Shown here: positions 8,225 to 40,351 of the stretch, piece by piece
Numbering within the stretch: the first letter of the stretch is position 1
Layout of the letters: each line of letters opens with the position of its first letter
Notes under the pieces: generated by a model
Told to the model about the DNA's origin: nothing
Databases searched by the model: none
What the model saw: the letters and a program-made list of their open reading frames with translations, nothing else
Program-made: the position numbers and the translations under genes
Source: Gammaproteobacteria bacterium
Lineage (GTDB): Bacteria > Pseudomonadota > Gammaproteobacteria > JAABTG01
NCBI GenBank assembly: GCA_034522055.1
Contig: JAXHLS010000002.1
Span: 3,553,549 to 3,617,548 of the forward strand
Length of the DNA stretch: 64,000 nucleotides
Direction of reading: 5' to 3'

Positions 8225-9469
8225 ATGCTCAAAGAGTTCTTAAAACAGGGCGATTTCCTCGAGCGCTTACACAGTAACCCGCTGCGGGAACACCTCGATT
8301 CGTTCTCGACCTCACTGGTCGAGGAAGCCTACGCTTCGTCGACAGTCCGATTGAAGCTTCTCTGGGTCGTCGAATTTGGTTGGTGGCTGCAAGAGGAGCA
8401 GCTCACAGCTGAGCAGCTCAGCGAGCACATTGTCGATCGGTTCCTGAAGGAGTTGCAGCGCCTGGGACAGCTGCAGCGAGGTCAAAGGCCGACCACCCTA
8501 AGGTTTGTTGCGTATCTGCAGAGTCAGGGGGTCATTCCGTTTCCTGAGCCGGTTTGTGACACCTCGCCGCTGGCCGAGCTCGAGCGCCGGTACGAGCGCT
8601 ATCTGCGAACCGAACGCGGCCTGACCACGGCGACGGTGTTGAACTACCGGCCCGCTGCCCATGGTTTTCTGGTCCATCATTTCGGCGACGGCCCCTTGCG
8701 TATCGAGGAGCTGACGGGATCGGACATCTCCACCTACGTCCTTACCCACGCTCGCTGCCAAGGCGCAAAAAGAGCGCAGCTTCTAGTCACGGCACTGCGC
8801 TCGTTCTTTCGATTCTTGTTGCGCGAGGCGAAGACCCAGATCGATCTGGCCGCTTGTGTGCCGGCCGTCGCGGATTGGCGCTTGTCGTCCGTTCCCAAAT
8901 TCCTGACCGCGGAGGAGATCCAACGCCTGTTGGATGGCTGCGATCGCACGACAGCGACAGGGAGACGCGACTATGCGGTCCTGGTCCTCCTCGCCCGCCT
9001 TGGACTACGTGCCGGCGAGGTCGTCGCCCTCGAAATCGATGACATCAATTGGCGAGCCGGCGAAGTGATGATTCGCGGGAAAGGCTTCGTGCATGAGCGC
9101 TTACCGTTGCTCACCGAACCGGGAGAGGCGATGGCTGCCTACTTGCGTCGGGATCGTCCCGAGACCCGCTCGCGCCGGGTCTTCGTTCGCATGAAGGCAC
9201 CCCATTCGGGCTTCGCCGGGCCATCAACCGTCTCGACCATTGTTCGGCGCGCTCTGGAACGCGCCAGTCTCCAACCGCCTGCCAAGGGCGCCCACCTACT
9301 CCGCCACACCCTGGCGACGGAGATGCTCCGAGGGGGTGCATCCATGAGCGAGATCGGCCAAGTGCTCCGACATCGCTCCCCGAACACCACGGAGATTTAC
9401 GCCAAAGTCGACCTCTCCGGTCTCCGCTCCCTTGCCCCACCGTGGCCGGACATAGGGGGTGGGCAATGA
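8225..9469 (+). CDS. RIT-1 tyrosine recombinase, first gene
   Basis: This 414-residue recombinase has an ATG at 8225 preceded by a strong GGAAGGAG site. An N-terminal domain of about 110 residues is followed by a SAM-like domain (LERRYERYLRTERGLTTATV), a short helical region and the catalytic domain: Box I RLGLRAGEVVALE (near 260), Box II HLLRHTLATEML (near 358), GQVLRHRSPNTTEIY with the Tyr near 391. The stop overlaps the next start as ATGA. In RIT elements the three recombinases are believed to act together. The division of labour between them is not known. Confidence 0.9.
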   Translation: MLKEFLKQGDFLERLHSNPLREHLDSFSTSLVEEAYASSTVRLKLLWVVEFGWWLQEEQLTAEQLSEHIVDRFLKELQRLGQLQRGQRPTTLRFVAYLQSQGVIPFPEPVCDTSPLAELERRYERYLRTERGLTTATVLNYRPAAHGFLVHHFGDGPLRIEELTGSDISTYVLTHARCQGAKRAQLLVTALRSFFRFLLREAKTQIDLAACVPAVADWRLSSVPKFLTAEEIQRLLDGCDRTTATGRRDYAVLVLLARLGLRAGEVVALEIDDINWRAGEVMIRGKGFVHERLPLLTEPGEAMAAYLRRDRPETRSRRVFVRMKAPHSGFAGPSTVSTIVRRALERASLQPPAKGAHLLRHTLATEMLRGGASMSEIGQVLRHRSPNTTEIYAKVDLSGLRSLAPPWPDIGGGQ

Positions 9470-10407
9470 ACCAGCTACGTGACGCTTTGGAGGAGTATCT
9501 TGCCGTGCGCCGGAGCCTGGGATTTGGCCTGCGGATACCGGCGAGCTTGCTACATAACTTTGTCTCCTTTCTGGAAGCCAACGAGGCGACCTATATTACC
9601 CGAGCGTTGGCGATTCGCTGGGCCGAACAACCCCGCGACGCGCAGCTAGCCACATGGGCGGGGCGCCTGGGAGTGGTGCGTCGCTTCGCCCGCTGGCGCA
9701 GCGTGACCGATCCGCGCACCGAGATCCCACCGGATGGCCTCTTGCCTTACCGCTACCACCGTAACCCTCCTTACATTTACACCGATGAGGAGATCGAGCG
9801 GCTCCTTGGCGCCGCCGCAGGGCTGCCTTCCGCCAATGGCCTGAAAGCCCGCAGCTACTTGACGCTGTTCGGCCTGCTTTCCGTCACGGGCATGCGCGTA
9901 AGCGAAGCACTCATGCTCGATCGTGTGGATGTCGATTTGGAGCAAGGAATCCTTACCATACGACGCACGAAGTTCGGCAAGTCACGGTTGGTGCCAGTCC
10001 ATCGCTCAACCCGCGATGCGCTGGAAAGCTACGACACGCAAAGAACGCGTGTGTTTCCCCGCCCGGAAACACCGGCATTCTTTCTCTCCGAGCGTGGTCG
10101 ACGCATCACGGAGTGGAGCGCGCGTTACACCTTCGCGAAACTCTCCCAACGGATCGGCCTGCGCGGCGCCGCGAAGGGTCACGGGCGCGGACCGCGGATT
10201 CATGACATGCGCCACCGATTTGCGGCCCGCACGTTACTGCAATGGTACCGCGCGGGGGTCGATGTCGAGCACGAGTTACCCAAGCTTGCCACCTATCTTG
10301 GCCACGTTCACGTGAATGAGACCTACTGGTATCTCGAGGCCGTCCCGGAACTCCTCCAGTTGGCCACCAAGCGCCTGATGGAGAAGGCCGAGGAGGTCCG
10401 CTCATGA
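9466..10407 (+). CDS. RIT-1 tyrosine recombinase, second gene
   Basis: This 313-residue recombinase starts at the ATG at 9466 inside ATGA, which overlaps the stop of the first gene; an upstream ATG in the same frame (9442) is less likely because the sister elements start at the overlap. Domains: N-terminal LRDALEEYLAVRRSLGFGLR, then the catalytic domain with SVTGMRVSEALML (Arg near 144), IHDMRHRFAARTLL (Box II near 247) and YLGHVHVNETYWYLEA with the Tyr near 287. This type contains the TKFGKSR(L/W)VP segment typical of the middle RIT protein. It ends ATGA-overlapped with the third gene. Confidence 0.9.
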   Translation: MNQLRDALEEYLAVRRSLGFGLRIPASLLHNFVSFLEANEATYITRALAIRWAEQPRDAQLATWAGRLGVVRRFARWRSVTDPRTEIPPDGLLPYRYHRNPPYIYTDEEIERLLGAAAGLPSANGLKARSYLTLFGLLSVTGMRVSEALMLDRVDVDLEQGILTIRRTKFGKSRLVPVHRSTRDALESYDTQRTRVFPRPETPAFFLSERGRRITEWSARYTFAKLSQRIGLRGAAKGHGRGPRIHDMRHRFAARTLLQWYRAGVDVEHELPKLATYLGHVHVNETYWYLEAVPELLQLATKRLMEKAEEVRS

Positions 10408-11399
10408 TCGCCAACAGCTTTCCCGCCATGCTTCAATCCTTTTTCACGGAGCGCCTATTTCGGCAACGCTGCGCCAGCGGACACACCATCGCTGGATACC
10501 GTGATGCCTTCCGTCTTCTTCTGCGTTACGCAGCAGAACGCCTCGGCACAGCGCCCTCGAAACTGCGGCTCGAGGATCTCGATGCGTCCTTCATCGGGCA
10601 GTTCCTCGATCATCTCGAACAGGAGCGGGGAAACAGCGCGCGCACCCGCAACGCCCGCCTGGCTGCAATCCATTCGTTCTTTCAATATGTCGCTTTGGAG
10701 GAGCCCGCCCATGCGCTGCTTTGCCAGCGCGTCCTGGCCATGCCGAACAAACGCCATGAGCGCCGGCTGATCGAGTTTCTCCACCGCGATGAGATCGATG
10801 CATTGATCGCCGCTCCAGACCCCTCCACGTGGATCGGCCGCCGGGATCGAACCTTCCTGACCGTGGCCGTTCAGACAGGACTGCGGGTTTCTGAACTGAT
10901 CGGACTTCGCTGTCAGGACGTCGTTCTGGAAACCGGGGCCCATGTGACATGCCTAGGAAAAGGCAGAAAACAACGCGCAACACCACTGAGTGAGGAAGTT
11001 GCGGCCATGTTGGGCAGTTGGCTGCAAGAGCGTAACGGCTTGCCTCAAGAGCCAGTCTTTCCCAGCAGCCGCGGCGGGCCACTCAGCCGGGATGCGATCG
11101 AACGCCTGGTCGCAAAACATGCCAAGATAGCCGAGCAAAGCTGTCCCTCCCTGCGCCGCAAAAAAGTGACCGCCCATGTCCTGAGGCACAGCGCCGCGAT
11201 GGACCTTTTGCAGCACGGTATCGATCGATCGGTGATTGCCCTCTGGCTGGGACATGAGTCCGTGGAAACGACACAGATGTATCTCCATGCAGACCTCCGC
11301 CTGAAGGAGCAGGCGCTGTCTCGCACCACGCCCCGAGGGATCGAACCGGCTCGCTACCGCCCCGACGACCAGCTGCTGGCATTCCTCGAGAGCCTGTGA
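10404..11399 (+). CDS. RIT-1 tyrosine recombinase, third gene
   Basis: This 331-residue recombinase starts in the ATGA overlap. The SAM-like domain (FTERLFRQRCASGHTIAGYR) is followed by the catalytic domain with QTGLRVSELIGL (Arg near 160), HVLRHSAAMDLL (Box II near 257) and ALWLGHESVETTQMYLHAD (Tyr near 292). The protein is close in sequence to the RIT-4 third protein and identical to RIT-2's. The stop at 11399 lies about 55 bases from the right terminal repeat, and between them is a GC-rich stretch without a further gene. Confidence 0.9.
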   Translation: MIANSFPAMLQSFFTERLFRQRCASGHTIAGYRDAFRLLLRYAAERLGTAPSKLRLEDLDASFIGQFLDHLEQERGNSARTRNARLAAIHSFFQYVALEEPAHALLCQRVLAMPNKRHERRLIEFLHRDEIDALIAAPDPSTWIGRRDRTFLTVAVQTGLRVSELIGLRCQDVVLETGAHVTCLGKGRKQRATPLSEEVAAMLGSWLQERNGLPQEPVFPSSRGGPLSRDAIERLVAKHAKIAEQSCPSLRRKKVTAHVLRHSAAMDLLQHGIDRSVIALWLGHESVETTQMYLHADLRLKEQALSRTTPRGIEPARYRPDDQLLAFLESL

Positions 11400-18148: not shown

Positions 18149-18969
18149 GAAAAAAGAAGCTGGCTCACATCACGGCCTTCCTCGCCTTCCTGCGCGGCCG
18201 GCAGAGCGACATCGCGGAATTGGCTCTTGCTGACATCGATGCATTCATCGTTTCATGCCGGGAGCATTATGCGCGCACCACCGTGGCGGACATGGCCTCC
18301 AGCGTGCGGAGTTTCCTGCGCTTTCTCCACACCATCGGCCGCCTGGCATCGGATCTGGCTCCCTCGGTAATGGCCCCCATCGTGCGCCGCGGTGAGCGGC
18401 CATTGCGGGCACTGCCGTGGGAGAAGGTACAGCGGATACTGGGCGCCATTGACCGCTCCACGGCCGCGGGGCGGCGCGATTATGCCTTGTTGCTGCTCAT
18501 GAGCGTCTATGGGCTGGGGGCCGGCGAGGTATTGGGCCTACGCCTGGAAGACATCGACTGGCGCGCCGACATTCTGCATGTCATCCGACCGAAGACCGGT
18601 GTGGCGGTGGAGCTGCCGCTGTTGCCGGCCGTGGCGCGGGTGCTGGTGGCCTACCTGCGCCACGGGCGCCCGCAACATGCGCACACGCGCCGCCTCTTCA
18701 TCAGCCTGCGGGCGCCCCATGGGCCGCTGGGCGCTTCCTCGGCCGTGCGGCACATCCTGCACAAACACGCCCAGACTGCTGGCGTCTCGGCCGTTTATCT
18801 CGGCAGCCATGTGCTGCGCCACACCCATGCCTGCCGGGAGCTCGAGCAGGGGGTGCCGCCCAAGGTGATCGGCGACATCCTTGGCCACCGCCGTCCGGAA
18901 TCGACCTCGGCGTACCTGCGCGTTGCCACTGAGCGTTTACGCGAAGTGGCCCTGGCGCTGCCGACATGA
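18149..18969 (+). pseudogene. RIT-3 first recombinase, C-terminal part
   Basis: Continues from the ISL3 target duplication: KKLAHITAFLAFLRGRQSDI, then the catalytic domain with MSVYGLGAGEVLGLR (Box I; the usual Arg in GLRxxE is replaced by Gly-Ala here, an odd feature), HVLRHTHACREL (Box II), DILGHRRPESTSAYLRV (Tyr). A GTG or ATG inside could not give a complete recombinase because the core-binding domain is upstream of the IS. The stop overlaps the next start (ATGA). The missing Box I Arg suggests this partner may be catalytically weak even when intact. Confidence 0.8.
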
Positions 18970-19928
18970 CCCGGGTCATGCAAGCGCAGCTGGCCCAGGA
19001 CATCGTCCAGTTCCTGGCATTCAAGCGCGCCCTCGGTTATCCCTATCGGCGCGGCGAAGCCATGCTGCGGAATTTCCAACGCTTCGCGCAAGCGCAGGCC
19101 GGCGCAGACGCGAAGATAGAGCTGGAGGCCATGATCGGCGGCTGGCTCTCGCGTATCGGCGGGCGCAAGCCCGTGACTGTCACTCTGGAGTTGGGGGTGA
19201 TCCGACAGCTTTGTCTGTATCGGCGCCGGTCCGATCCCCAAGGCTTCGTGCCCGGTCGCGAATGGGCACCGCAATCCACCGAGGCGCACTTCCTGCCCTA
19301 TGTCTTCTCCCATGCGGAGGTCCGGGCACTCGTCGACGCTGCAGGCAGGCATCGTCACCGCAATCTCACCCCCGGGACGCTGCGCACCTTGCTCCTGATC
19401 CTGTACTGTACCGGACTGCGGCTTGGCGAGGCCGTGCGCCTCATGCTGCAGGATGCGGACCTGGAGCGGGACCTGTTCATCGTGCGCGAGAGCAAGGGCA
19501 AGACCCGGCTCGTCCCATTCCACGGCGATCTTGCTCAGGTCCTTGACGAGTACTTGTCCGAGCGGGCGGCGATCGTGCCCAACGGCGATGAGGGACCGCT
19601 GCTGGTGCGCAACAGCGGTGATGGCCTGCCCGTCGGTGTTGCCTCCGAGGCCATCCGCCAACTCCTGCGCAAACTGGGGCTGAAACCGCCGCGCGGTCGC
19701 ATCGGTCCCCGTCCGTATGACTTGAGGCATGCCTTCGCCGTCCATCGCCTGACCGATTGGTACCACCAGGGTGTGGACATTCACGCGCGCCTGCCTTGGC
19801 TCTCGGCCTACATGGGTCATGATAATGTCCTCGGCACCGAGGCCTACCTCACCGCCACGGCGGAGCTGATGGACTTGGCCAGTGAGCGCTTCGCCGCGCG
19901 CTTCCGGGACGCTGCTCGCCGAACATGA
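18966..19928 (+). CDS. RIT-3 tyrosine recombinase, second gene
   Basis: This 320-residue recombinase starts in the ATGA overlap. Domains: N-terminal QLAQDIVQFLAFKRALGYPY; catalytic domain with YCTGLRLGEAVRLM (Box I Arg near 154), YDLRHAFAVHRLT (Box II near 252), SAYMGHDNVLGTEAYLTAT with the Tyr near 296. It includes the KGKTRLVPFHGDL segment equivalent to TKFGKSR in the sister proteins. No damage is visible. The stop overlaps the third gene's start. Confidence 0.88.
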   Translation: MTRVMQAQLAQDIVQFLAFKRALGYPYRRGEAMLRNFQRFAQAQAGADAKIELEAMIGGWLSRIGGRKPVTVTLELGVIRQLCLYRRRSDPQGFVPGREWAPQSTEAHFLPYVFSHAEVRALVDAAGRHRHRNLTPGTLRTLLLILYCTGLRLGEAVRLMLQDADLERDLFIVRESKGKTRLVPFHGDLAQVLDEYLSERAAIVPNGDEGPLLVRNSGDGLPVGVASEAIRQLLRKLGLKPPRGRIGPRPYDLRHAFAVHRLTDWYHQGVDIHARLPWLSAYMGHDNVLGTEAYLTATAELMDLASERFAARFRDAARRT

Positions 19929-20941
19929 CACGGCCTGCGAACAATCCGCTCCCGCACCTGGTTGAGCTGTTCTTCCGTGACCATCTACAACGTGCCCAGG
20001 GTGCCAGCCCCCACACGGTGCGCGCCTACCGCGACACGTTACGTCTGCTCCTCCTCCACCTGGCCGATACCAAGCACTGCGCGGTGGCCGATCTGCAACT
20101 GGATGATCTGCAGGTTGAGGCAATTGCCGATTTCCTCGCCCATCTGGAGTCGGCGCGGGGAAACAAGGCGGTGACGCGTAATTGCCGCTTTGCCGCCATC
20201 CGCAGCTTTTTCCGACACCTGCTCCGCCAGGACGTGGCCAACGCAGAGCAATACCAGCGTGTCTTGTCGTTGCCGACCAAGAAGGCCAGGGTGCCGCTCG
20301 CCACTTACCTGGAGCCGGAGGACGTGCATGTCATCCTGGAAAAGCCGGATCGCAGAACGGCCTTCGGGCTTCGTGACCATGCCCTCTTGCTGTTTCTCTA
20401 CAATACCGGCGCGCGAGTCAGCGAGGCGCTTGCCGTGCAGGGCCGGGATCTCGACCTGACCAAGCCTTTCCAAGTACGCCTCCATGGCAAGGGGGGAAGA
20501 GATCGGATCTGTCCGCTCTGGGCGGAAACCGCCACCGCTCTGCAGCATCTGCCAACCGTGCGACAAGGCGGGCCAGGTGACACGATTTTCCTCAGCAGCC
20601 GCAAGAAACCGCTCTCGCGCGATGGTGTGGCCTACATCCTGGGCAAGTACGTGGCGTTGGCGGCGAACGATGTCCCGAGCCTCCGCCGGCGGCGCATCAC
20701 CCCCCATGCCCTTCGCCATAGTTGCGCCGTCGCCTTGCTGCAGGCCGGCAACGACATCACCGTCATCCGCGATTACCTGGGGCACGCGAGCATTACCACC
20801 ACCAGTCGCTACGTCACGACAAACCTCAAGATGAAACGCGAAGCACTCGAGGCGTTCTGGAAGCGTGCCGGCATCGCTCCGGCACGGGTCACGCCGTGGC
20901 AACCGAAACCGGACCTGCTCGCTTTCCTGGACTCCCTGTGA
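19925..20941 (+). CDS. RIT-3 tyrosine recombinase, third gene
   Basis: This 338-residue recombinase starts in the ATGA overlap. The SAM-like domain (FFRDHLQRAQGASPHTVRAYR) precedes a catalytic domain with YNTGARVSEALAV (Box I Arg near 164), HALRHSCAVALLQ (Box II near 262) and RDYLGHASITTTSRYVTTN with the Tyr near 296. It ends QPKPDLLAFLDSL, like the third proteins of RIT-1 (DDQLLAFLESL) and RIT-4 (DDALVAFLKAL), which supports a common element family. The stop is about 60 bases from the right terminal repeat. Confidence 0.88.
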   Translation: MTRPANNPLPHLVELFFRDHLQRAQGASPHTVRAYRDTLRLLLLHLADTKHCAVADLQLDDLQVEAIADFLAHLESARGNKAVTRNCRFAAIRSFFRHLLRQDVANAEQYQRVLSLPTKKARVPLATYLEPEDVHVILEKPDRRTAFGLRDHALLLFLYNTGARVSEALAVQGRDLDLTKPFQVRLHGKGGRDRICPLWAETATALQHLPTVRQGGPGDTIFLSSRKKPLSRDGVAYILGKYVALAANDVPSLRRRRITPHALRHSCAVALLQAGNDITVIRDYLGHASITTTSRYVTTNLKMKREALEAFWKRAGIAPARVTPWQPKPDLLAFLDSL

Positions 20942-22975: not shown

Positions 22976-24256
22976 CTAGGGTCGGTCGAGTCGGGGATGG
23001 AGAGCGGTTCGACCATGGCGAAGCTCCACAACCTCGGCCGGCTCAGCCGCGCCGGTGATGCGCTCCAGTTGCGCGTTCCACTGGCGCAGGGCCTCGGCGA
23101 TCTCCTTCACATAGCGGTAACGGTTGTAGACGCGGGCGACGCCAGACACCTGGCCGCTACGGTGGTTCAACAGGGCCTCGATGATGTGGGGTGGGGTGCC
23201 CATCTCGGCCAAGCGGCTTGCAACCGTGCGGCGCAAGTCATGGAAGCGCCACGGCGCTACCTCGGGCCACCTGGCGGCATCGCTCTGGTGCATCTCCTTC
23301 AGGCGCTCGTCCAGGACACGCTTCGCCCTGCTGAACCCGCTAACCGGCGTCTTGCCGGCGCGCCCGCTGAATACAAACGGTCCCTTGAAGCGGGGGAGGG
23401 CATCCAGTTCCGCGCGGGCCATGGCCGGCAGCGTCACCATGTGGGGGGTGCTGTTCTTCGGGTCCGGGATACTCCACAGGGCGCCGTCCAGGTCCTCGTG
23501 GCGCATGTGCGCGGTCTCATTCTCCCGCTGCCCTGTGGCGGCCAGCAGGCGCACGAACGGGCCGAAGGGATAGCCCAGTTCTCCGGCAGCCTCCCAGACG
23601 GCGGCCAGCTCGCCGTCTGTCAGTACCCGGTCTCGGGAAGGGATCTTGGCCGGCAGCTTGAGCCCCGCAATAGGAGAGGCGGGCAGGATGCCGCGCTGAA
23701 CCGTCCAGTTAAAGAACGCGGCCAGGATGCGGTGAGTCAATACGGCCTGCGCGGGGTGCCCGCTCCTTAGGTGGTCCTCGGTGATATCCAACACGTGGCG
23801 CCGAGTCAGTTTTGTAATCGGCTTGCTGCCCAGCTTCGCCTTGATGCGATTCAACTCGCGCTCGTAGCTGGCGGCAGTGCGGGGCTTCAACTTCACTTTG
23901 CAGTGGTAGGTCACATAGTCGGCCACCACGTCATCGAAGCTCTCCCGCGCGCCGTCGGGGATGGTCTCCGAAGGGCTCTGCCGCGGATCGTCGCCCTCGG
24001 CAACCTTGGTCATGGCCGCGCGGGCCGCCGCGCGCGCCTCGGCAAGCTTCACGCCCCGGCCTTCCGTCTCGGAATAATCCCCCAGGAGGAGCCGGGACTG
24101 TCTGCCGTTCACCCGGTAGAACACGAAGAAGGTCTTTCGCCCCTTGGTATTCACCCGCACGCCGAACCCTGGAAGCAGAGTGTCGAACACGTCAACGCGC
24201 CCTGCGGAGGGCGGCGCCAAGTGGGTAACAGTCTTGTCGGTGAGCCGTTTTTTCAT
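22976..24256 (-). CDS. int: Island integrase (tyrosine recombinase with N-terminal arm domain)
   Basis: This 426-residue integrase of the P4/DUF4102-type starts at the ATG at 24256. The N-terminal arm-binding domain reads TDKTVTHLAPPSAGRVDVFD ... LPGFGVRVNTKGRKTFFVFYR. The core-binding domain and the catalytic domain follow: AATGQRENETAHMR (Box I Arg), WRFHDLRRTVASRL (Box II) and ALLNHRSGQVSGVARVYNRY with the Tyr near the end. It lies just inside a 45-bp copy of the tRNA-Thr 3' end, so it is almost certainly the integrase that placed the island. It appears intact. Confidence 0.9.
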   Translation of the reverse strand: MKKRLTDKTVTHLAPPSAGRVDVFDTLLPGFGVRVNTKGRKTFFVFYRVNGRQSRLLLGDYSETEGRGVKLAEARAAARAAMTKVAEGDDPRQSPSETIPDGARESFDDVVADYVTYHCKVKLKPRTAASYERELNRIKAKLGSKPITKLTRRHVLDITEDHLRSGHPAQAVLTHRILAAFFNWTVQRGILPASPIAGLKLPAKIPSRDRVLTDGELAAVWEAAGELGYPFGPFVRLLAATGQRENETAHMRHEDLDGALWSIPDPKNSTPHMVTLPAMARAELDALPRFKGPFVFSGRAGKTPVSGFSRAKRVLDERLKEMHQSDAARWPEVAPWRFHDLRRTVASRLAEMGTPPHIIEALLNHRSGQVSGVARVYNRYRYVKEIAEALRQWNAQLERITGAAEPAEVVELRHGRTALHPRLDRP

Positions 24257-24292
24257 AATCAGTCGCCCCAAGTGGGTAACAAGTGGGTAACA
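24219..24292 (+). repeat. Probable integrase arm-type sites (AAGTGGGTAAC repeats)
   Basis: AAGTGGGTAAC occurs at 24219-24229, 24270-24280 and 24281-24291, the last two in direct tandem. An inverted GTTACCC lies at 24397-24403. All are between the integrase N-terminus and the tRNA-derived attachment core, the position expected of integrase arm-binding sites. One copy lies within the first codons of the integrase and two directly upstream of its start, so integrase binding may also repress its own gene. Confidence 0.6.
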
Positions 24293-24729: not shown

Positions 24730-25725
24730 TCAAGCGGTTTGGAGATGCTGATCGCTAAACAGCTTGGAGGAGTCGAAAGGCTGATCATGCTGCATGCAGG
24801 CCCAGATTCCGGTGAGGTACTTGCGCATGACGGCGCACAAGGCTTGGATCCGCTTTTTGCCCCGGGCCACCAGAGCGTTATAGAACGCCTTGGCATACGG
24901 GTCATGCACGATCGCCACCATCGCTGGCATGTACAGGGCGCTACGCAGGTAGGCATTGCCGGTCTTGGCTAGGCGCCCGGGTCGATGGACGCTAGAGCCC
25001 GACTCATGCAGGCGCACGTCCAGCCCAGCATGACGAGCGACTTGTTTGGCCTTCAGGTCCCTGGGCAGTGTGGATAGCTCGGCCAGCAGAGCCAGGCTGC
25101 TGGCTGCCGCGAGGCCGGTGGCGGCACAGAGATGGGCCTGATGTTGCGCCAGCTCGGGGGTCTGCTGGATCAAGTCCTGGGCCGCTTGTTGCACCCGTTC
25201 GATGCGTTGGTCCAGTTGAGCGATGCTTTCCTCGGCATCCTCGATCAGCAGGGCTGGCGTGCCCCGTTGCGCCTTCAGGGCGTGCAGGTGGTTCTTGGCC
25301 TGGGTCCGCGCGTCCATTAGGCGGTTGAGATGCCGGCCGAAGTCGCGTAGGGCCCGATAGGTCGATGGCGGCGGGGTCCAGCGCCTAGGCGTCATGCGTT
25401 CGGCGTATTCGGCCAACAGGGCGGTGTCGAGCGGGTCGGTCTTACTGCCGCGCAGCGTAATTTCGGCGAAATGCCGGAAGCTGCGCGGGTTGATCACGGA
25501 CACCGGCAGCCCGGCCTCGTGCAGGGCCAGCGCGAGGTCCAGGTAGTAGATGCCAGTGGCCTCCAGCACGATGCCCGCCGGTTGCAGCGCCTGCAGCTTG
25601 CGGATCGCCTGGGCGTGACCTTGGGCAGTCTGTGGGAAGGTGTAGACCTTACTGTTCTTGCCGTCACGACGGCAGAGCAAGTCGAAGGAGCGTGCGGCGA
25701 CATCAATGCCGATATAAACGCTCAT
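24730..25725 (-). CDS. IS110-family transposase
   Basis: The 331-residue DEDD-type recombinase starts at the ATG at 25725, preceded by a strong AAAGGAGGAAC site. The N-terminal RuvC-like domain contains VYIGIDVAARSFDLL (first Asp), IVLEATGIYY (Glu) and GSKTDPLDTALLAEYA (the DxxD pair). The C-terminal Tnp_20 domain contains ALLAELSTLPRDLKAKQVAR and SGSSVHRPGRLAKTGNAYL with the catalytic Ser region. The length and motifs are complete. This type cuts using an RNA guide in the best-studied members. I have not shown this for the present element. Confidence 0.92.
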   Translation of the reverse strand: MSVYIGIDVAARSFDLLCRRDGKNSKVYTFPQTAQGHAQAIRKLQALQPAGIVLEATGIYYLDLALALHEAGLPVSVINPRSFRHFAEITLRGSKTDPLDTALLAEYAERMTPRRWTPPPSTYRALRDFGRHLNRLMDARTQAKNHLHALKAQRGTPALLIEDAEESIAQLDQRIERVQQAAQDLIQQTPELAQHQAHLCAATGLAAASSLALLAELSTLPRDLKAKQVARHAGLDVRLHESGSSVHRPGRLAKTGNAYLRSALYMPAMVAIVHDPYAKAFYNALVARGKKRIQALCAVMRKYLTGIWACMQHDQPFDSSKLFSDQHLQTA

Positions 25726-25977
25726 CGTTGTTCCTCCTTTCCCTTCTGGGGTCGGTTGCGTCACACTGATCACCGGTTCCCCGACCTCGCATTTCTTGCC
25801 GGTTCGACCTTGTGATACGAAGTCCAGCCAGGCTGGCTTCCCGATACTCCTCGAAATCGGCAATGAGGCGGGGAGCCCATCTACGCGCGAGGTCAGAAAC
25901 TTCCTGCCTCCAGGTCGGGACGGCTTCCCCGGTGTCTGGCAAAAAACCTAACATGCCAGATAACTCCAACATACAAG
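25726..25977 (-). ncRNA. Candidate IS110 bridge-RNA region
   Basis: The 250-bp non-coding stretch upstream of the IS110 gene is where the bridge RNA of IS621-type elements is encoded. I did not derive a convincing secondary structure with target and donor loops by eye, so this is a location inference only. The relevant test is whether loop sequences match the REP target on both sides. Confidence 0.3.
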
Positions 25978-27260: not shown

Positions 27261-27535
27261 GGCCCAACGGCCCAGGGGCCGGCGCTTTGCATCGCCCTGA
27301 ACGAGGGGCTACAAAACGCGAAGCGCCACTCGGCCGGCTTCAAGTTTTCGAGGTTTGGATCTTCAGTCATAGGTGTTCGCAATGACGTAGGGTGGGTCAA
27401 GCGTAGCGGACCCACCGGTCAGGAGGGGGGCAATGACCCGGCGCCCAATGGTGGAATCGCTGCGCTTGTTCCACCCTACAATTGATTCACCATTCACCAT
27501 TCACCATTCACCATTCACCATTCACCATTCCCCAT
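27261..27535. repeat. Gap with a CCATTCA heptamer array
   Basis: The 3' flank of the next gene contains about eight tandem copies of CCATTCA between 27486 and 27540, one altered to CCCCATTCA. The array runs into the stop codon of the RibD-like gene. The rest of the gap shows nothing. A related word (GGTGAATaGTGAAT on the plus strand) lies before soeB at 38608-38634. Confidence 0.6.
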
Positions 27536-28381
27536 TCACCAATCGTTCCGGGCATTGGTCTCGAAGGCGGCGAACCACTGGCCGGTGGCCTGGGGTGGGC
27601 CGGGGTCGTAGTGGAGGGAGCGCATGCGGAGGCGGCCGGTGTCGCCGAGTTCGGGGCCGAAGGCGGGGGTGTGGAAGGCCTCGCCGCCGAGGATGCGGTG
27701 GTTGAGGGTGAGGTAGAGGCGGGCCAGCACGCCGTCGGCCAGGGTGGAGGCCAGCATGCGGGGGCCGGTGAGGAGGTAGAGGCGGCGATAGCCCATTTCT
27801 CCCAGGGTGCGGGCCATGAAGGCGCCGTCCACCAGGGCCCCCGGGGCGCTGGCGATGACGGGGTAGCCCTGCCCGCGCCAGTAGTCCACCCGCCGGGGCG
27901 GGGCGTCGCCACCGGTGATGATGATTACGGCCTGGCCGTGGTGGGCCAGGGACGGCGGCAGGGGAAAGTCGAGGCTGCGGCTGACGATGGCCACGGCGGG
28001 CTGGTGGGTGAGGCCGCGGGCCTGGCGCCATTCGCCGATGTCCCGGGCCCGGGAGGAGATCCCCACCTGGAGGATGTCCCCCAGCCTGCCCTCGGCCAGG
28101 GCCCGCAGGTAGCCGCTGTGGGTCACGAGGCAGTCGGCGTGGGCCTGGAGTTCCTGGAACAGGCGAAAGTCGCGGGCGCTGGTGAGATACTTGGGCACGT
28201 GGGATCTGTCCCCGGGCTCATCCGCCAGGGCGATGCGCCCGTCCAGGCTGGTGACGAAGTTGGCGTAGACGAAGGGGCGCTCCGGGGAGCCCAGGGTGTG
28301 GATGTCCTCCGCCAGGTAGGTACCCTCGAGGCGGCGCCGGGCGCCTGGCTCCGGGTAGAGCTCCATGAGCTCGTCTACCAT
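27536..28381 (-). CDS. RibD C-terminal-type reductase
   Basis: This 281-residue protein starts at the ATG at 28381 and belongs to the RibD_C/dihydrofolate reductase-like fold. Visible motifs are RPFVYANFVTSLDGRIALAD at the N-terminus, the substrate/NADPH-binding segment conserved in pyrimidine reductases, DCLVTHSGYLRA, and near the C-terminus RLYLLTGPRMLASTLADGVL, equivalent to the 'EGG..L......L.DE' region. The deaminase domain of RibD is absent, so it is either a stand-alone 5-amino-6-ribosylaminouracil reductase or, more often for such genes, a related oxidoreductase of unknown substrate. There are no riboflavin genes nearby. Confidence 0.75.
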   Translation of the reverse strand: MVDELMELYPEPGARRRLEGTYLAEDIHTLGSPERPFVYANFVTSLDGRIALADEPGDRSHVPKYLTSARDFRLFQELQAHADCLVTHSGYLRALAEGRLGDILQVGISSRARDIGEWRQARGLTHQPAVAIVSRSLDFPLPPSLAHHGQAVIIITGGDAPPRRVDYWRGQGYPVIASAPGALVDGAFMARTLGEMGYRRLYLLTGPRMLASTLADGVLARLYLTLNHRILGGEAFHTPAFGPELGDTGRLRMRSLHYDPGPPQATGQWFAAFETNARNDW

Positions 28382-29541: not shown

Positions 29542-29694
29542 AGGGTGTCGTCCTCGTCAGTTTCTGCGGGTGGGGCGGGGGTTGGCGCCGATGGCTACCA
29601 TGGCCCTTGCGTGACCGCCTATTATAGGTTTGGCCAGCTCCCTTGCCCACGCGACAGGAGGTGGACCATCACCAACCACATGCAGAGGATACCC

Positions 29695-30192
29695 ATGCAC
29701 ATATTGAAAAGAGTGTTCATTCCTGCCGTCATGGCGGCAACGGTGTCGCCTACGGCCCTGGCGGCGGATCCCATGACCATCGCCCAGTCCCGCATCTCCA
29801 TGGACGTGGCCAGCACCATCGCCACGGCGGCGGTGTCCGCGTGCCGCGACAAGGGGATCCCCATCGGGGTTTCGGTGGTGGATCGCAACGGCATCATCCA
29901 GGTCCAGATGCGGGATACCACCGCGCCCCCTATCACCCTGAATATCAGCCGCAAGAAGGCCTACACCGCCATCATGTTCAACGCCAAGGGCTCGGATCTG
30001 GAAAGCCGGGCCGGCAGTCAGCTCACCAACCTGGGTGAAGGCCTGGCCTTCATGGCGGGATCCGTGACCATCGCGGCGGGTGGCAAGATCTACGGTGCCG
30101 TGGGGGTGAGCGGTGCGCCGGACGGCATGGTGGACGAAGAGTGTGCCCAGGCGGGGCTGGACGCCGTGATCATGGACCTCGAGATGCTTTAA
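29695..30192 (+). CDS. GlcG/HbpS-family protein, secreted
   Basis: The 165-residue protein starts at the ATG at 29695 (AGAGGA 5 bases upstream); an in-frame ATG at 29680 is an alternative. A signal peptide (KRVFIPAVMAATVSPTALA) is followed by the HbpS/GlcG domain: MDVASTIATAAVSACRDKG, VSVVDRNGIIQVQMRDTTAP and a C-terminal GAVGVSGAPDGMVDEECAQA. Family members bind haem or have unknown roles in glycolate operons. The mature protein is exported to the periplasm. It stands alone here with its own upstream region. Confidence 0.85.
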   Translation: MHILKRVFIPAVMAATVSPTALAADPMTIAQSRISMDVASTIATAAVSACRDKGIPIGVSVVDRNGIIQVQMRDTTAPPITLNISRKKAYTAIMFNAKGSDLESRAGSQLTNLGEGLAFMAGSVTIAAGGKIYGAVGVSGAPDGMVDEECAQAGLDAVIMDLEML

Positions 30193-30382
30193 GATTTTGC
30201 TTTGAGGGATGGTCAGGGGGGATACCCTGTCAATTGGTATGTGAATATTCCACGTATCGTTTCGTGGCTCCATTTTCGTTCACAACGTTTCGTTAAGGTC
30301 CACCCTCGCGCCTCGTCGTCCCCGGTCGGCGGGGCGATCTCAACTTAATGGTTTAAAAGGGAAAAAGTTTTTTCGAGCAGGT

Positions 30383-30398
30383 TGGCACGCGTCTTGAT
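30383..30398 (+). promoter_or_regulatory. Sigma-54-like promoter for the small repeat protein
   Basis: TGGCACGCGTCTTGAT has the -24 (TGGCACG) and -12 (TTGAT; consensus TTGCW) spacing of sigma-54 promoters, with only the GC of the -12 element changed to GA. It lies 70 bases upstream of the start at 30469. A stem AAGGGCG-N7-CGCCCTT (30410-30430) follows in the leader and might affect stability or translation. No other convincing promoter is visible. Confidence 0.55.
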
Positions 30399-30468
30399 AC
30401 AACTTGGGCAAGGGCGGTAAAGACGCCCTTTACATCGACCCAAACACAGAGACGTAAGGAGTTATGCC

Positions 30469-30798
30469 ATGAAAAAACTCACCACCCTGTTGCTCGCCGC
30501 TGCCTTCTCCACACCCGCCTTCGCCGGCGATGTCGTCGACTTCGGCATCGGTATCGATGAGGGGTATAAGGGCGGCGACAGTAGCTTCGCCACGACCTCG
30601 ACTGTGCTCCGGTCCAGCGGGCCCGATGTCAGGGACGGCCATGTACTGGACTTCGGTCTCGGCATCGATGAGGGCTATGCCAGCCAGCGGGACTATCCGG
30701 CTGAGGAGGTACTGGTCACCGATGAGCGGGATTCCGGTGGCAACCGGCTCGACTTCGGCCTCGGTATCGATTCGGGCTACGAGGACTGCGTGTGCTGA
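30469..30798 (+). CDS. Small secreted protein with three DFGxGIDxGY repeats
   Basis: The 109-residue protein starts at ATG 30469 with AAGGAGTT upstream. A signal peptide (KKLTTLLLAAAFSTPAFA) precedes three copies of one motif: VVDFGIGIDEGYKGG near residue 22, VLDFGLGIDEGYASQ near 58 and RLDFGLGIDSGYEDC near 92. The spacers are of 20-25 residues, and the protein ends in CVC. I know no family with this pattern. The acidic, Gly-rich repeats suggest a metal-binding or surface-assembly role, but this is a guess. A sigma-54-like promoter precedes it. Confidence 0.75.
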   Translation: MKKLTTLLLAAAFSTPAFAGDVVDFGIGIDEGYKGGDSSFATTSTVLRSSGPDVRDGHVLDFGLGIDEGYASQRDYPAEEVLVTDERDSGGNRLDFGLGIDSGYEDCVC

Positions 30799-30936
30799 GG
30801 GCCTGGGTTCCCGGCCACGCGGCAGGTAGTCGAACTATAATCTGAGTCGCTCGATGCTCTCAGGAAAGCCCATGGGCCGCCACCGGAACCGCAATGATGC
30901 GGTCGCCGGGGCGGCCTTTCTGCGTCCAGGGGCTTA

Positions 30937-31326
30937 CTACACCGTTCCCCGTTCTCTTCTCGCGGCGGCGACCCGCCGCCCCAGCAGCACCCCATAGATG
31001 ACCAGGTTCACCGCCAATACCCCGCCCCCCAGCAACCACTGCATGGAGGGCGTGAGGCCCGGGGGATAGAGCAGGGGCATGAGATAGTGCTCCACGAAGT
31101 CACCCTCGTAGCCGGCCTGACCGGCCATCCCCCGCAGCCATTGCTCCAGGGGCGTAAGGGGGCAGGGCCAGCCGCGAAACTCCAGCAGCACCACCCACAC
31201 TACCGCCGGCAGATGGACCAGGGCGATCCAGCTCCGATACGCCACCAGCAGGCCTCCCAGCACCACGAAGGCCACGAAGACGAGGTGAAGGACCAGGACG
31301 CCGTCCGCGGCCAGCCGCGCCAGCAT
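30937..31326 (-). CDS. DUF2784-type small membrane protein
   Basis: The 129-residue protein starts at the ATG at 31326, overlapping the stop of the upstream gene by one base (TGATG). It has three to four transmembrane helices and the DUF2784 signature: ADGVLVLHLVFVAFVVLGGL, then FRGWPCPLTPLEQWLRG and YEGDFVEHYLMPLLYPPGL. Function of the family is unknown. It is the last gene of a tight minus-strand operon with a DUF6064-like protein, an aldo/keto reductase and TspO. Confidence 0.85.
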   Translation of the reverse strand: MLARLAADGVLVLHLVFVAFVVLGGLLVAYRSWIALVHLPAVVWVVLLEFRGWPCPLTPLEQWLRGMAGQAGYEGDFVEHYLMPLLYPPGLTPSMQWLLGGGVLAVNLVIYGVLLGRRVAAARRERGTV

Positions 31327-35184: not shown

Positions 35185-35532
35185 GGACACCCATCCCTGC
35201 GTAGGCCGGACACCCACTCCAAGAGTGCGAGAGCGTAGGCCGGACACCCACTCCAAGAGTGCGAGAGCGTAGGCCGGAGCGTAGGCCGGACACCCACTCC
35301 AAGTGCGTAGGCTGGACCGGAGCGTAGGCCGTACGTAGGCTGGACACCCACCCCAAGGTGAGGTGCGTAGGCCGGACACCCCAAGCGTAGGCCGGACACC
35401 CACCCCAAGGCACATGGGAGCGTACGTAGGCTGGACACCCACCCCAAGGTGAGGTGCGTAGGCCGGACACCCCAAGCGTAGGCCGGACACCCACCCCAAG
35501 GCACATGGGAGAGTGCGCAGGCCGGACACCCA
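35185..35532 (+). repeat. GGACACCCAC array A (11 units)
   Basis: Units begin at 35185, 35208, 35242, 35288, 35342, 35374, 35394, 35433, 35464, 35484 and 35524. Most are preceded by GTAGGCCG or GTAGGCTG and followed by TCCAAG or CCCAAGG. The part 35342-35420 is repeated at 35433-35510, giving a tandem of about 90 bases. Units read in the same direction as the upstream PilZ gene. Flanked on the right by the soeA leader. Nothing in this gap codes for protein. Confidence 0.88.
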
Positions 35533-35544
35533 ACCCACGGCCCT

Positions 35545-35675: not shown

Positions 35676-38567
35676 GTGGACTACACGGCCAAGCAAACGC
35701 CCGCCCATCGGGAGGAGGTCAAGAACACCACCTGCTACATGTGTGCCTGCCGTTGCGGCATCCGGGTGACCCTGCGGGACGGGCAGATACGCTACATCGA
35801 GGGCAATCCCGACCATCCCCTGAACCAGGGGGTGATCTGTGCCAAGGGGGCCTCGGGGATCATGAAGCAGGAGTCCCCGGCCCGCCTCACCCGGCCGCTC
35901 CTGCGCAAGCGCGGGGCGGAGCGCGGGGAGAGCAATTTCGAGGCCATCTCCTGGGACCGTGCCTTCGAGATCCTGGAACGGCGCCTCGCCGGCATCCGCG
36001 GGGACGATCCGAAGAAATTCGCCATTTTCACCGGCCGCGACCAGATGCAGGCCCTGACGGGCATGTTCGCCAAGCAGTTCGGCACGCCAAACTATGCGGC
36101 CCACGGTGGCTTCTGTTCGGTGAACATGGCCGCCGGCATGATCTACACCATCGGCGGTTCCTTCTGGGAGTTCGGCGGCCCCGATCTGGAACGGGCCAAG
36201 CTGTTCGTGATGATGGGTACCGCCGAGGACCATCACTCCAACCCCCTCAAGATGGCCATCTCGAAGTTCAAGCGCGACGGCGGGCGCTTCATCACCATCA
36301 ACCCGGTGCGCACGGGCTATTCCGCCATCGCCGATGAATGGATGCCCATCCGTCCCGGCACCGACGGTGCCCTGCTGTTGGCCCTGGTGCACGAGATCAT
36401 TCGTCTGGGGCTCTACGATCGGGATTTCCTCATCGATTACACCAACGCGCCGGAGCTGGTGAATCTGGACCAGGCCTCCACCGAGCACGGCATGTTCCTA
36501 CGCACCGAGGTGCCGGAGGAGGAGGGCTGCTTCGACCCCCAGAACAAGCTGTGGTGGGACCGCCATACCAACCGTCCGGTGCTGAACCGGGCCGAGGGCG
36601 CCGATCCCTTCCTCCTGGGAAGCTTCCAGCTGGACGATGGCACGCCCGTGAAGCCCGCTTTCCAGCTGCTCAAGGAACGGGTGGCCAAGTACACTCCGGA
36701 ATGGGCCGCCGGCATCACCGGGATCAAAGCCGGCGACATCCACCGTCTGGCCCACGAGATGGGCGTCACCGCCCGCGACCAGCAGATCGAGCTGCCCATC
36801 CAGTGGACCGACGTGTGGGGGCGCGAGCACGAGTCCGTCACCGGCCGTCCCGTGGCCTTCCACGCCATGCGCGGCCTGGCGGCCCATTCCAACGGCTTTC
36901 ATACCATTCGTGCCCTGTCCATCCTCATGACCCTGCTGGGTACCATCGACCGTCCCGGCGGCTTTCGCCACAAGGCCCCCTTCCCGCGCCCCATCCCGCC
37001 CTGCGCCAAGCCCCCGAAGGGGCCGCAGGACGTGCGTCCCGGCGAGATCCTGAACGGCATGCCCCTGGGCTGGCCGGCCGATCCGGACGACCTGTTCGTG
37101 GACGACGACGGCAGGCCGGTGCGCATCGACAAGGGCTTCTCCTGGGAGTACCCCCTGTCGGTGCACGGCCTCATGCACAATGTCATCACCAACGCCTGGC
37201 GGGGCGACCCCTATTCCCTGGACACCCTGTTGCTGTTCATGTCCAACATGGCCTGGAATTCCACCATGAATACCATGGAGGTCCAGGACATGCTGCGGGA
37301 CAAGGACGAGAACGGCGAGTACCGCATCCCCTTCCTGGTGGTGAGCGACGCCTTCCAGTCGGAGACCGTGGCCTTCGCCGATCTGGTGCTGCCGGACACC
37401 ACCTATCTTGAACGCCACGACGTCATGTCCATGCTGGACCGGCCTATCTCCGAGTTCGACGGCCCGGTGGACTCCGTGCGCATTCCGGTAAAGGAGCCCA
37501 AGGGGGAGTGCAAGCCCTTCCAGGAGGTGCTCATCGAGCTGGGATCGCGCCTCGGCCTGCCGGCCTTCGTGGACGCCGAGGGCAAGCGCAAGTACCGGGA
37601 CTACCCGGATTTCATCACCCGCTACGAGACCGAACCGGGTTCCGGTATCGGTTTCCTCGCCGGCTGGCGGGGCACGGGCGGCGAGAAGTTCATGAAGGGC
37701 GAGCCGAATCCGCGCCAGTGGGAGATGTACGCCAACAACAACTGCTTCTTCCACTACGGGATGCCCAAGTCCTTCCAGTACATGCGCAACTGGAACGCCG
37801 GTTACCTCAACTGGGCCAAGCACCACGGTCTCACTCGTTACGCCGAGCCCATCAACCTGCACATCTACTCAGAGGTGCTGCAGAGTTTTCGGCTGGCGGC
37901 CCAGGGTAAATGGGACGGCAAGCAACCCCCGGACCACCTGCGCCAGCGCGTCGAGACCTACTTCGACCCGCTGCCCTTCTACCACGAGCCCCTGGAGACC
38001 CAGCGCATCGACACCCAGGAGTTTCCGCTGAACGCCGTGACCCAGCGCCCCATGGCCATGTATCACTCGTGGGACTCCCAGAACGCGTGGCTGCGCCAGA
38101 TCCACGCCCACAATTATCTGATGGTGAATCCCCGGGTGGCCCGAGAGAAGGGCATCGCCGACGGCGACTGGCTGTGGGTCGAATCGGCCCACGGCAAGGT
38201 GAAATGCATGGCCCGCTACAGCGAGGCGGTGGAGCCGGGCACGGTGTGGACCTGGAATGCCATCGGCAAGTCGCCCGGGGCATGGGGTCTGCACCCCAAG
38301 GCCAACGAGGCCCGGCAGGGTTTTCTGCTCAATCATCTGATCAGTGAAGAGCTGCCTGCCGCCCAGTTGGATGAGCACCTGTCCAACTCCGATCCCGTCA
38401 CCGGCCAGGCCGCCTGGTACGACCTGCGGGTACGCATCAGGAAGGCCGAGGCCGGCGAGGACAAGGCCACCTGGCCTGGCTTCAAGGCCGTCAAGCCGGT
38501 GCCGGGCCAGACCCACCGGCGGCCACGATGGCAGGCCTATGTGGCGGGGTTGTTCGGCAGGCGCTGA
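35676..38567 (+). CDS. soeA: Sulfite dehydrogenase SoeA, molybdopterin subunit
   Basis: This 963-residue molybdopterin oxidoreductase starts at a GTG (35676) behind GGAGAGAG. The N-terminal [4Fe-4S] motif is CYMCACRCG with the fourth Cys in VICAKG (about residues 20-56). HGGFCSVNMAAG near 145 holds the likely Mo-ligating Cys. A C-terminal molydopterin-dinucleotide domain starts near 790. There is no Tat signal, so the enzyme is cytoplasmic, as described for SoeABC, which oxidises sulfite to sulfate. It is followed by genes for an iron-sulfur subunit and a membrane anchor. The closest alternatives are polysulfide or thiosulfate reductases, which are generally exported. Confidence 0.85.
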   Translation: MDYTAKQTPAHREEVKNTTCYMCACRCGIRVTLRDGQIRYIEGNPDHPLNQGVICAKGASGIMKQESPARLTRPLLRKRGAERGESNFEAISWDRAFEILERRLAGIRGDDPKKFAIFTGRDQMQALTGMFAKQFGTPNYAAHGGFCSVNMAAGMIYTIGGSFWEFGGPDLERAKLFVMMGTAEDHHSNPLKMAISKFKRDGGRFITINPVRTGYSAIADEWMPIRPGTDGALLLALVHEIIRLGLYDRDFLIDYTNAPELVNLDQASTEHGMFLRTEVPEEEGCFDPQNKLWWDRHTNRPVLNRAEGADPFLLGSFQLDDGTPVKPAFQLLKERVAKYTPEWAAGITGIKAGDIHRLAHEMGVTARDQQIELPIQWTDVWGREHESVTGRPVAFHAMRGLAAHSNGFHTIRALSILMTLLGTIDRPGGFRHKAPFPRPIPPCAKPPKGPQDVRPGEILNGMPLGWPADPDDLFVDDDGRPVRIDKGFSWEYPLSVHGLMHNVITNAWRGDPYSLDTLLLFMSNMAWNSTMNTMEVQDMLRDKDENGEYRIPFLVVSDAFQSETVAFADLVLPDTTYLERHDVMSMLDRPISEFDGPVDSVRIPVKEPKGECKPFQEVLIELGSRLGLPAFVDAEGKRKYRDYPDFITRYETEPGSGIGFLAGWRGTGGEKFMKGEPNPRQWEMYANNNCFFHYGMPKSFQYMRNWNAGYLNWAKHHGLTRYAEPINLHIYSEVLQSFRLAAQGKWDGKQPPDHLRQRVETYFDPLPFYHEPLETQRIDTQEFPLNAVTQRPMAMYHSWDSQNAWLRQIHAHNYLMVNPRVAREKGIADGDWLWVESAHGKVKCMARYSEAVEPGTVWTWNAIGKSPGAWGLHPKANEARQGFLLNHLISEELPAAQLDEHLSNSDPVTGQAAWYDLRVRIRKAEAGEDKATWPGFKAVKPVPGQTHRRPRWQAYVAGLFGRR

Positions 38568-38637
38568 GGATGGCGGGAAGGTGATCGGGCCTGGCTGATG
38601 GCGGTTTTGGTGAATAGTGAATCGGGTTGGTGAATAG

Positions 38638-39369
38638 ATGACTCAGTTGGCGTTAATTATCGATCTCAACGTGTGCGTGGGCTGCCATGCCTGCGTCACC
38701 AGCTGCAAGTCCTGGAATACCTCCGGGGTGGCGGGGCCCATGGTGGACCATGATCCCTATGGCAAGGACCCCACCGGCACCTTCTTCAACCGCGTCCAGA
38801 CCTTCGAGGTGGGGGAATTTCCCAACACCGAGACGATCCACTTTCCCAAGAGCTGCCTCCATTGCGAGGATCCGCCCTGCGTACCCGTGTGCCCCACCGG
38901 CGCCAGTTACAAGCGTGCCGAGGATGGTATCGTGCTGGTGGATTACGACAAGTGCATCGGCTGCAAGTATTGTTCCTGGGCCTGCCCCTATGGCGTGCGG
39001 GAGGTGGACGAGCAGCAGAAGGTGATGAAAAAATGCACCCTGTGCATCGATCGCATCTACGACGAGAACCTGCCGCAGGCCGAACGCAAGCCCGCTTGTG
39101 TGCTCGCCTGTCCCACCAGCGCGCGCCTGTTCGGCGATGTCCATGACCCCGACTCTGCGGTGTCCGTGGCCATTCGCGAGGAGGGTGGCTACGCCCTCAT
39201 GCCCGAGTGGGGCACGCGGCCGGCCAACCACTACCTGCCGCGGCGTAAGACCCGCATCAAGCTCCACGAGGACGAACTGGCGCGGGCCGACAACCCCCTG
39301 CGCAAGGAGGGCCCGCTGCCCGAGCCCGAGCCCGGCGCCCAGAGCCTCGACGACGTCATGAGTTGGTGA
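38638..39369 (+). CDS. soeB: Sulfite dehydrogenase SoeB, iron-sulfur subunit
   Basis: The 243-residue ferredoxin-type protein carries four [4Fe-4S] Cys clusters: CVGCHACVTSC near the N-terminus, CLHCEDPPCVPVCP, CIGCKYCSWACPYG, and CTLC with a later CVLACP. This is the electron-transfer subunit of the DmsB/PsrB type. No signal peptide, consistent with a cytoplasmic SoeA. The gap after soeA is about 70 bases and contains GGTGAAT repeats with no obvious ribosome site, so translation may be coupled. The C-terminus ends two bases before the soeC start. Confidence 0.88.
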   Translation: MTQLALIIDLNVCVGCHACVTSCKSWNTSGVAGPMVDHDPYGKDPTGTFFNRVQTFEVGEFPNTETIHFPKSCLHCEDPPCVPVCPTGASYKRAEDGIVLVDYDKCIGCKYCSWACPYGVREVDEQQKVMKKCTLCIDRIYDENLPQAERKPACVLACPTSARLFGDVHDPDSAVSVAIREEGGYALMPEWGTRPANHYLPRRKTRIKLHEDELARADNPLRKEGPLPEPEPGAQSLDDVMSW

Positions 39370-39370
39370 C

Positions 39371-40351
39371 ATGCATCCAGCCTTTTCAGTCATTTTCCTC
39401 ACTACCCTCATTGGCGTCGGCCAGGGCCTGTTCCTGGCCCTCTACACCGGCCAGCTTTACACTCTGGCCAACCTGCTGCCACCGCAGCATGACCCCCGGT
39501 TCTACGCCGTGGGCAGCCTCATCGCCCTGGTGTTCCTGGCGGCCGGGCTGGTGGCCTCCATCTTCCACCTGGGGCGGCCGGAACGGGGCTGGCGCGCCGC
39601 CAGCCAGTGGCGCACCTCGTGGTTGTCCCGGGAGATCATCGTGTTGCCCCTGTTCGTGGTCCTGGTGGCCGCCTACGGTGCCGTGCACTACCTGGGCTGG
39701 ACCCAGCCCTTGTTCGTGGTGTCGGACACCCTTCCGGTGGATGCCAGCCTCATCATCGGCGCCGTGGGCACCCTGACGGCGTTCCTGCTGTTCGTAACCA
39801 CCGCCATGATCTACGCCTGCCTGAAGTTCCTGCAGGAGTGGCACAGCCCCCTCACCGTGTTCAATTTCATCCTGCTGGGCGGCGCCTCGGGCTTCACCCT
39901 GGCCGCAGCCTTCTCGGCCTACACGGGCGGTGGCCTGCTGGGCTTTTACGGCACCTGGGCGGTGATCCTCACCCTCGCCGGCTTCATCACCCGGGGCTGG
40001 TCGCTGCGGCGCAACCGGCGGTTGCGCCATAAGTCATCGCTGCAGACGGCCATCGGCGTGCGCCACAGCCATATCGAGCAGAAGGCTCAGGGGGCCATGG
40101 GGGGTTCCTTCAATACCCGTGAGTTCTTCCATGGCCGCAGCCCGGCGGCGCTAAGGACCATCCGCCAGTTCTTTCTGCTCATGGTATTCCCCCTGCCGGT
40201 GCTGCTGCTGGGCGTGGCCTACCAGATACAATCCGGGACCCTGCCCATGGTCGCCTTCGCCCTGCAGTACGCAGGCCTTGTCGCCGAACGCTGGTACTTC
40301 TTCGCCGAGGCCAGGCATCCCCAGAACCTCTACTACCAGCACATCTCCTGA
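39371..40351 (+). CDS. soeC: Sulfite dehydrogenase SoeC, membrane anchor
   Basis: This 326-residue DmsC/NrfD-like integral membrane protein has eight or so transmembrane helices (FLTTLIGVGQGLFLALYTGQ, LIALVFLAAGLVASIFHLGRP, LLGGASGFTLAAAFSAYTGG). The FHLGRPERGWRA loop resembles the DmsC region near the quinone site. It hands electrons from SoeAB to the quinone pool. It follows soeB after one base. Its stop is directly followed by repeat array B, and no terminator is visible, so any 3' end probably lies within the array. Confidence 0.88.
   Translation: MHPAFSVIFLTTLIGVGQGLFLALYTGQLYTLANLLPPQHDPRFYAVGSLIALVFLAAGLVASIFHLGRPERGWRAASQWRTSWLSREIIVLPLFVVLVAAYGAVHYLGWTQPLFVVSDTLPVDASLIIGAVGTLTAFLLFVTTAMIYACLKFLQEWHSPLTVFNFILLGGASGFTLAAAFSAYTGGGLLGFYGTWAVILTLAGFITRGWSLRRNRRLRHKSSLQTAIGVRHSHIEQKAQGAMGGSFNTREFFHGRSPAALRTIRQFFLLMVFPLPVLLLGVAYQIQSGTLPMVAFALQYAGLVAERWYFFAEARHPQNLYYQHIS

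Follow-up and report, generated by a model that had tools for sequence, protein, structure and literature searches.

The question raised by this locus is whether an open reading frame encoding 109 residues, with three copies of a ten-residue motif and a sigma-54-like sequence in front of it, is a real gene, and if so what its product might do. The frame lies in a stretch of 64,000 nucleotides (hereafter the window) of a Gammaproteobacteria bacterium contig, and the coordinates of its features are collected in Table 1. The first-pass annotation had described a small exported protein that consists of three copies of one motif and ends in CVC. Its export signal was found by eye, the predicted signal peptide comprising residues 1–19, and the C-terminal CVC was confirmed. 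The part of the description that did not stand is the composition: three motif copies are present, but they occupy only 30 of the 109 residues, so the protein contains the motifs rather than being made of them.

Table 1. Features of the repeat protein locus (window coordinates).
Feature	Position	Strand	Basis
HbpS-like (haem-degrading-type) neighbour	29692-30192	+	PF03928, E 1.4e-26; neighbour in the congeneric genome 84% identical
Upstream block CCACGTATCGTTTCGT, candidate enhancer-binding-protein site	30250-30265	+	16-nt run identical in ortholog leader
Upstream block TTTCGTTCACAACGTTTCGTT, CGTT-N3-AACG-N3-CGTT symmetry, candidate enhancer-binding-protein site	30274-30294	+	identical in ortholog leader
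Sigma-54-type -24/-12 promoter TTGGCACG-CGTC-TTGAT	30382-30398	+	sequence; core recurs before relatives
Hairpin at predicted transcript 5' end	30410-30430	+	z -2.34; 1 of 200 shuffles as good
Ribosome-binding site AAGGAG	30456-30461	+	read from sequence, 7 nt before ATG; ortholog has one too
Repeat protein gene, 109 aa	30469-30798	+	ORF, ATG start
Sec-type signal peptide MKKLTTLLLAAAFSTPAFA (predicted)	30469-30525	+	by eye: basic start, hydrophobic core, AFA cut site
Motif copy 1, DFGIGIDEGY	30538-30567	+	DNA repeat and motif search
Motif copy 2, DFGLGIDEGY	30649-30678	+	DNA repeat and motif search
Motif copy 3, DFGLGIDSGY	30751-30780	+	DNA repeat and motif search
C-terminal Cys-Val-Cys	30787-30795	+	kept in ortholog, missing in paralog

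A homolog search covered 95 relatives, with E 0.1 or better counted as a match. Three of them matched: the genome of the window itself (G000), a genome of the same genus (G001, E 4.8e-32), and a third (G014, E 0.085) whose match was treated as chance. G001, the one other genome of the genus compared, holds a syntenic ortholog that is 56% identical and is placed between an HbpS-like gene and genes for a DUF6064 protein and an aldo/keto reductase. The same genome has a paralog, found through protein similarity, with five motifs and no cysteine; it measures 197 residues from the first ATG and 193 from the second, which was used here. When the paralog served as the query (E 0.01, 56 genomes), matches were found only in G001, where they comprised the paralog itself and the ortholog, and for this reason the genome of the window seems to be without the long form. 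On the G001 contig 51, a gene for a YgaP-like transmembrane protein (PF11127; L064 598-807) lies divergently upstream of the paralog.

Wider searches gave a similar distribution. A profile of the 11 repeat units detected members in G000 and G001 among 369 genomes of the class, plus one single-motif match elsewhere; among 398 genomes of the phylum, a sample that overlaps the former, it detected the own genome only. The single-motif match (G013, E 2.7e-4 in the class search) was rejected: it lies on the strand opposite to a longer ORF of 245 residues, by eye a PepSY-type membrane protein. Scanning of the GTDB r220 contigs with patterns from the two orthologs returned one locus, the G001 contig, from the metagenome-assembled genome Thiotrichales bacterium S21.Bin127. 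Its sister bin S21.Bin061 is listed as coming from lacustrine sediment in Tibet (PMC9032823), and this is likely the origin of S21.Bin127 too, since the two are sister bins. A DNA pattern of the motif matched nine sites in 12 genomes, seven of them in repeat-family genes and two elsewhere (reversed control, two). No member was found in the plasmids, phages, and viral contigs searched. In G002, a genome of the same taxonomic family that is 85% complete and fragmented, no repeat gene stands beside the two HbpS-like loci within the flanks viewed. The strings DFGLGID, YERGIDRGY, GIDEGY, and GIDRGY were absent from the open-licence literature searched. By these similarity searches, the repeat family is confined to one genus within the sampled genomes, and relatives do exist, in the form of the ortholog and the paralog.

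The ortholog and the paralog also keep the motifs. In the window gene, three 43-nt DNA repeat copies are found at 30525, 30636, and 30738, copies 2 and 3 sharing 81% and 72% identity with copy 1. The skeleton [DN][FY]xxxI[DE]xG[YW] occurs three times in the window protein; among 200,000 shuffles of the mature chain, one copy appeared in 14 and two copies in none. Because the shuffled chains never gave two copies, we regard the three repeats as real. The motif D-F-x-x-G-I-D-x-G-Y is short and amphipathic, its F, I, and Y following one another at four-residue intervals, and in a comparison of 11 units the isoleucine is present in all and the second-last glycine in 10. The copies start 37 and 34 residues apart in the window protein, 34 and 34 in the ortholog, and 34, 34, 34, and 33 in the paralog; the spacing is thus 33–34 residues in all three proteins apart from a single gap of 37 residues in the window gene. 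The linkers are mostly unlike across the three proteins. Between the orthologs, 19 of 30 motif positions and 24 of 57 places in the remaining mature chain are identical, and the first 20 residues are 80% identical.

Comparison of the two orthologs gave a dN/dS (NG86) of 0.34 over the full gene and 0.27 over its mature part, and the one gap between them comprises three whole codons. The corresponding values of the neighbours are 0.24 (HbpS-like) and 0.60 (DUF6064). The ratio of the repeat gene is soft and rough, since its dS (0.92) exceeds those of the two neighbours (0.38 and 0.37). As judged from these substitutions, the repeat gene is under purifying selection. The possibility that the frame is a chance ORF and no real gene agrees with the lack of any match in the family libraries searched, but it is contradicted by the syntenic ortholog, the dN/dS of 0.34, the common promoter core, and the ribosome-binding site, and we find it scarcely credible.

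No known domain had been recognized in the protein at first sight, and the library searches likewise returned no relative. Pfam gave no match for the window protein or the ortholog and one below the cut-off for the paralog (best E 0.001); NCBIfam, searched with the window protein only, gave no family match (best E 0.063, residues 1–29); PHROGs gave a best E of 0.072 for the window protein and 0.0027 for the paralog, without a passing stretch; and the PDB searches yielded nothing better than E 0.47. AlphaFold predicted no fold for the window protein (mean pLDDT 33.6, below 50 throughout), with helices of very low confidence only at motifs 1 and 2. The low pLDDT is weak evidence of disorder because the alignment is shallow, consisting of two sequences. 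The mature window protein is acidic and hydrophilic (pI 4.05, GRAVY -0.38), and a charge-hydropathy plot placed the window protein and the paralog, but not the ortholog, on the disordered side. On this body of sequence evidence, we conclude that the gene encodes a genuine, lineage-restricted small protein with predicted Sec export, belonging to a new two-member family.

The common promoter core is the strongest point of the case. The GG at -24 inside TGGCACG (30383-30389) is present and is kept in the ortholog and the paralog; the GC at -12 inside TTGCW is absent, all three genes having TTGAT, with A in place of the C. Five genomes of the host family, searched for exact copies of TGGCACGNNNNTTGAT, contained three sites, which lie before the window gene, the ortholog, and the paralog, and this search was independent of the protein-similarity search that found the paralog. 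Base composition alone would give 0.41 and 0.31 core sites in the two genomes that carry these genes, and 6e-6 for every 150 nt. The distance from TGGCACG to the ATG is 86 nt in the window, 83 nt in the ortholog, and 89 nt in the paralog (measured to its second ATG; the first lies at 77 nt). RpoN is encoded in all five host-family genomes (PF04552, E 1.0e-68 in G000), and no sigma-70-like site was seen on the strand of the gene within 30190-31000. When up to one mismatch was allowed, 16 sites in G000 and 14 in G001 were obtained, including those of the repeat family; the control gave 7 and 6 matches, and about half of the one-mismatch sites may therefore be chance. One near match in G000, TTGGCACGGTAGTTGAC, was rejected as lying inside a coding region. 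The assignment of TGGCACG-N4-TTGAT to sigma-54 in the first-pass annotation thus agrees with a sigma-54-type core that recurs, as read from the sequences, before every family member found in genomes encoding RpoN.

The variant -12 element has counterparts in Escherichia coli. In ChIP-seq data, an identical core, TTGGCACGGCAATTGAT, was bound by E. coli sigma-54 (PMC4591121), and we therefore regard TTGAT as a sigma-54 variant, an imperfect match. According to the same source, the pspA and pspG promoters also lack the usual -12 C: they have a likewise similar core (TTGGCACG / TTGGCATG) with TTGTA, whereas the window has TTGAT, and the genes controlled are unrelated. The common core offers a route to the controlling activator, whose signal would show when the protein is needed.

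The leaders of the window gene and the ortholog are 71% identical overall. The block at 30250-30265 lies about 145–160 nt before the predicted transcription start, and that at 30274-30294, 21 nt in length, is the longest stretch of full identity (shuffle P 0.047). The sequence CGTTNNNAACGNNNCGTT has one further copy in G000 and occurs nowhere else in G001. From their position, the two upstream blocks could bind an enhancer-binding protein; we offer this as a suggestion only, because by eye no such blocks were seen before the paralog. The stable leader hairpin reported earlier holds for the window (Table 1), and the leaders of the ortholog and the paralog show no folding advantage over shuffled sequences (z -0.53 and -0.31). 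The synteny of the HbpS-like gene is kept in G001. A gene for a PilZ/YcgR-type protein, 3.7 kb from the window gene, is the sole nearby hint of nitrogen, motility, or biofilm control.

Several models of function fit these data about equally well. The one that we tentatively prefer, at somewhat less than an even chance, is a sigma-54-switched, exported, mostly unfolded protein with several docking motifs. The gene, its conservation, the register of its motifs, and the common promoter core are shown by the analysis; the export and disorder of the protein, the use of the promoter by sigma-54, multivalent docking, and cross-linking are inferred. In this model, sigma-54 RNA polymerase together with an enhancer-binding protein would act at the TTGGCACG-N4-TTGAT promoter to activate the gene. 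Its product, once mature, would be a mostly unfolded acidic chain with one short amphipathic motif per about 34 residues. Every motif would act as a docking hook, which would let a single chain bind several molecules of its partner, either in the periplasm or at the cell surface, and the protein would serve as a scaffold or coat. Chains of the short form could be cross-linked through their CVC ends; this would not be a general function, since the paralog is without CVC. A more far-reaching and rather doubtful proposal is that the family represents a new class, exported multivalent scaffolds under a sigma-54 switch, built of a 34-residue hook unit with a mostly free linker, in which the copy number (three or five) would set the number of partners. 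If the scaffold reading is true, the cell would build an extracytoplasmic body or coat when one is required. A gene family that is restricted to one genus and appears to be under selection and wired to a tightly controlled promoter type makes a clean, testable case.

A rival reading is an envelope (coat) protein of periplasmic sulfur globules, working like SgpA-D of Allochromatium. Among the five host-family genomes, dsrA scores above the curated cut-off in G000, G001, and G002, and members of the repeat family are found only in dsrA-bearing genomes (G000 and G001); G002, however, carries dsrA and the repeat protein was not found there. The Sgp proteins of Allochromatium vinosum are described as small and Sec-exported, as predicted here, and SgpD is repetitive and nearly limited to one family, but SgpA-C are extremely hydrophobic (PMC10386293). 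The window protein, compared with them by description, is lineage-restricted and has a Sec-type signal peptide by eye; it lacks this extreme hydrophobicity, its mature chain being acidic and hydrophilic, and its repeat is another one. We give the globule coat an outside chance, and it is worth testing because the host genus has dsrA. The CVC and the acidic motifs lead to a different idea, a periplasmic protein that binds metal or carries sulfur. Both orthologs carry the CVC at their extreme C-terminus. E. coli zraP encodes a periplasmic zinc-binding protein. The gene is listed with a sigma-54 site (PMC4591121). Against this, the paralog has the same promoter core and no cysteine, the conserved residues of the motif include just one or two acids and neither histidine nor cysteine, and no known metal-binding family was matched (Pfam, NCBIfam). 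As the two orthologs have CVC and the paralog does not, it cannot carry the common function of the family. A metal- or thiol-handling role seems quite improbable.

The surface could also be served by a regulator rather than a scaffold, and sigma-54 often serves surface functions. Bd0108 of Bdellovibrio bacteriovorus, which tunes pilus formation, is a small, intrinsically disordered protein (PMC4267844), and the window protein is likewise small, with predicted disorder. It might be a small, disordered protein that regulates a surface machine, or a secreted signal. No such role in pilus regulation is indicated, however: no pilus, flagellar-structure, or secretion gene adjoins the window gene, and a T2SSE-type ATPase gene that G001 carries at a distance of about 6 kb from the paralog is weak as a hint of a surface machine. 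We know of no repeat of the D-F-x-x-G-I-D-x-G-Y kind in Bd0108, and the regular 34-residue repeats would be left unexplained, which makes this reading unlikely. A multicopy precursor, from which the repeated peptide would be cut into several 10-mers, accords with similar motifs at regular spacing in a protein with predicted export. It appears very improbable, since by eye no common cleavage context flanks the 11 motif copies and the remaining mature chain is itself kept in part (see above). Resemblance to RTX repeats, whose consensus is GGxGxDxUx, is limited to the G-x-G-x-D that the window motif copies also hold. The RTX period is 9, as opposed to about 34 here (spacings of 33–37), head-to-tail nonapeptides are absent, and the first G of the RTX core is missing in ortholog copies 1 and 2 and in four of the five paralog copies.

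Other features of the window were noted in passing. Two sets of three consecutive overlapping tyrosine-recombinase-like ORFs lie at 8225-11399 and 18220-20941, which we take to be RIT-like elements; four of the six ORFs were searched, and all four match XerC/XerD-type models, below the cut-off. ORFs that resemble a tyrosine integrase (22976-24271) and a transposase, IS110-like by eye (24730-25863), are found 5–7 kb upstream of the repeat gene. The region at 35676-40351 contains genes for a molybdopterin oxidoreductase and an Fe-S subunit as well as a third ORF, which matched nothing. The oxidoreductase and subunit genes hit many families, none above its NCBIfam cut-off, and the region possibly encodes a sulfur-cycle enzyme. 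Between the PilZ gene and the oxidoreductase gene, an imperfect tandem repeat array with periods of 12–91 nt and the core CGTAGGCCGGACACCC occupies 35199-35537, and the 7-mer ATTCACC is repeated eight times at 27485-27541.
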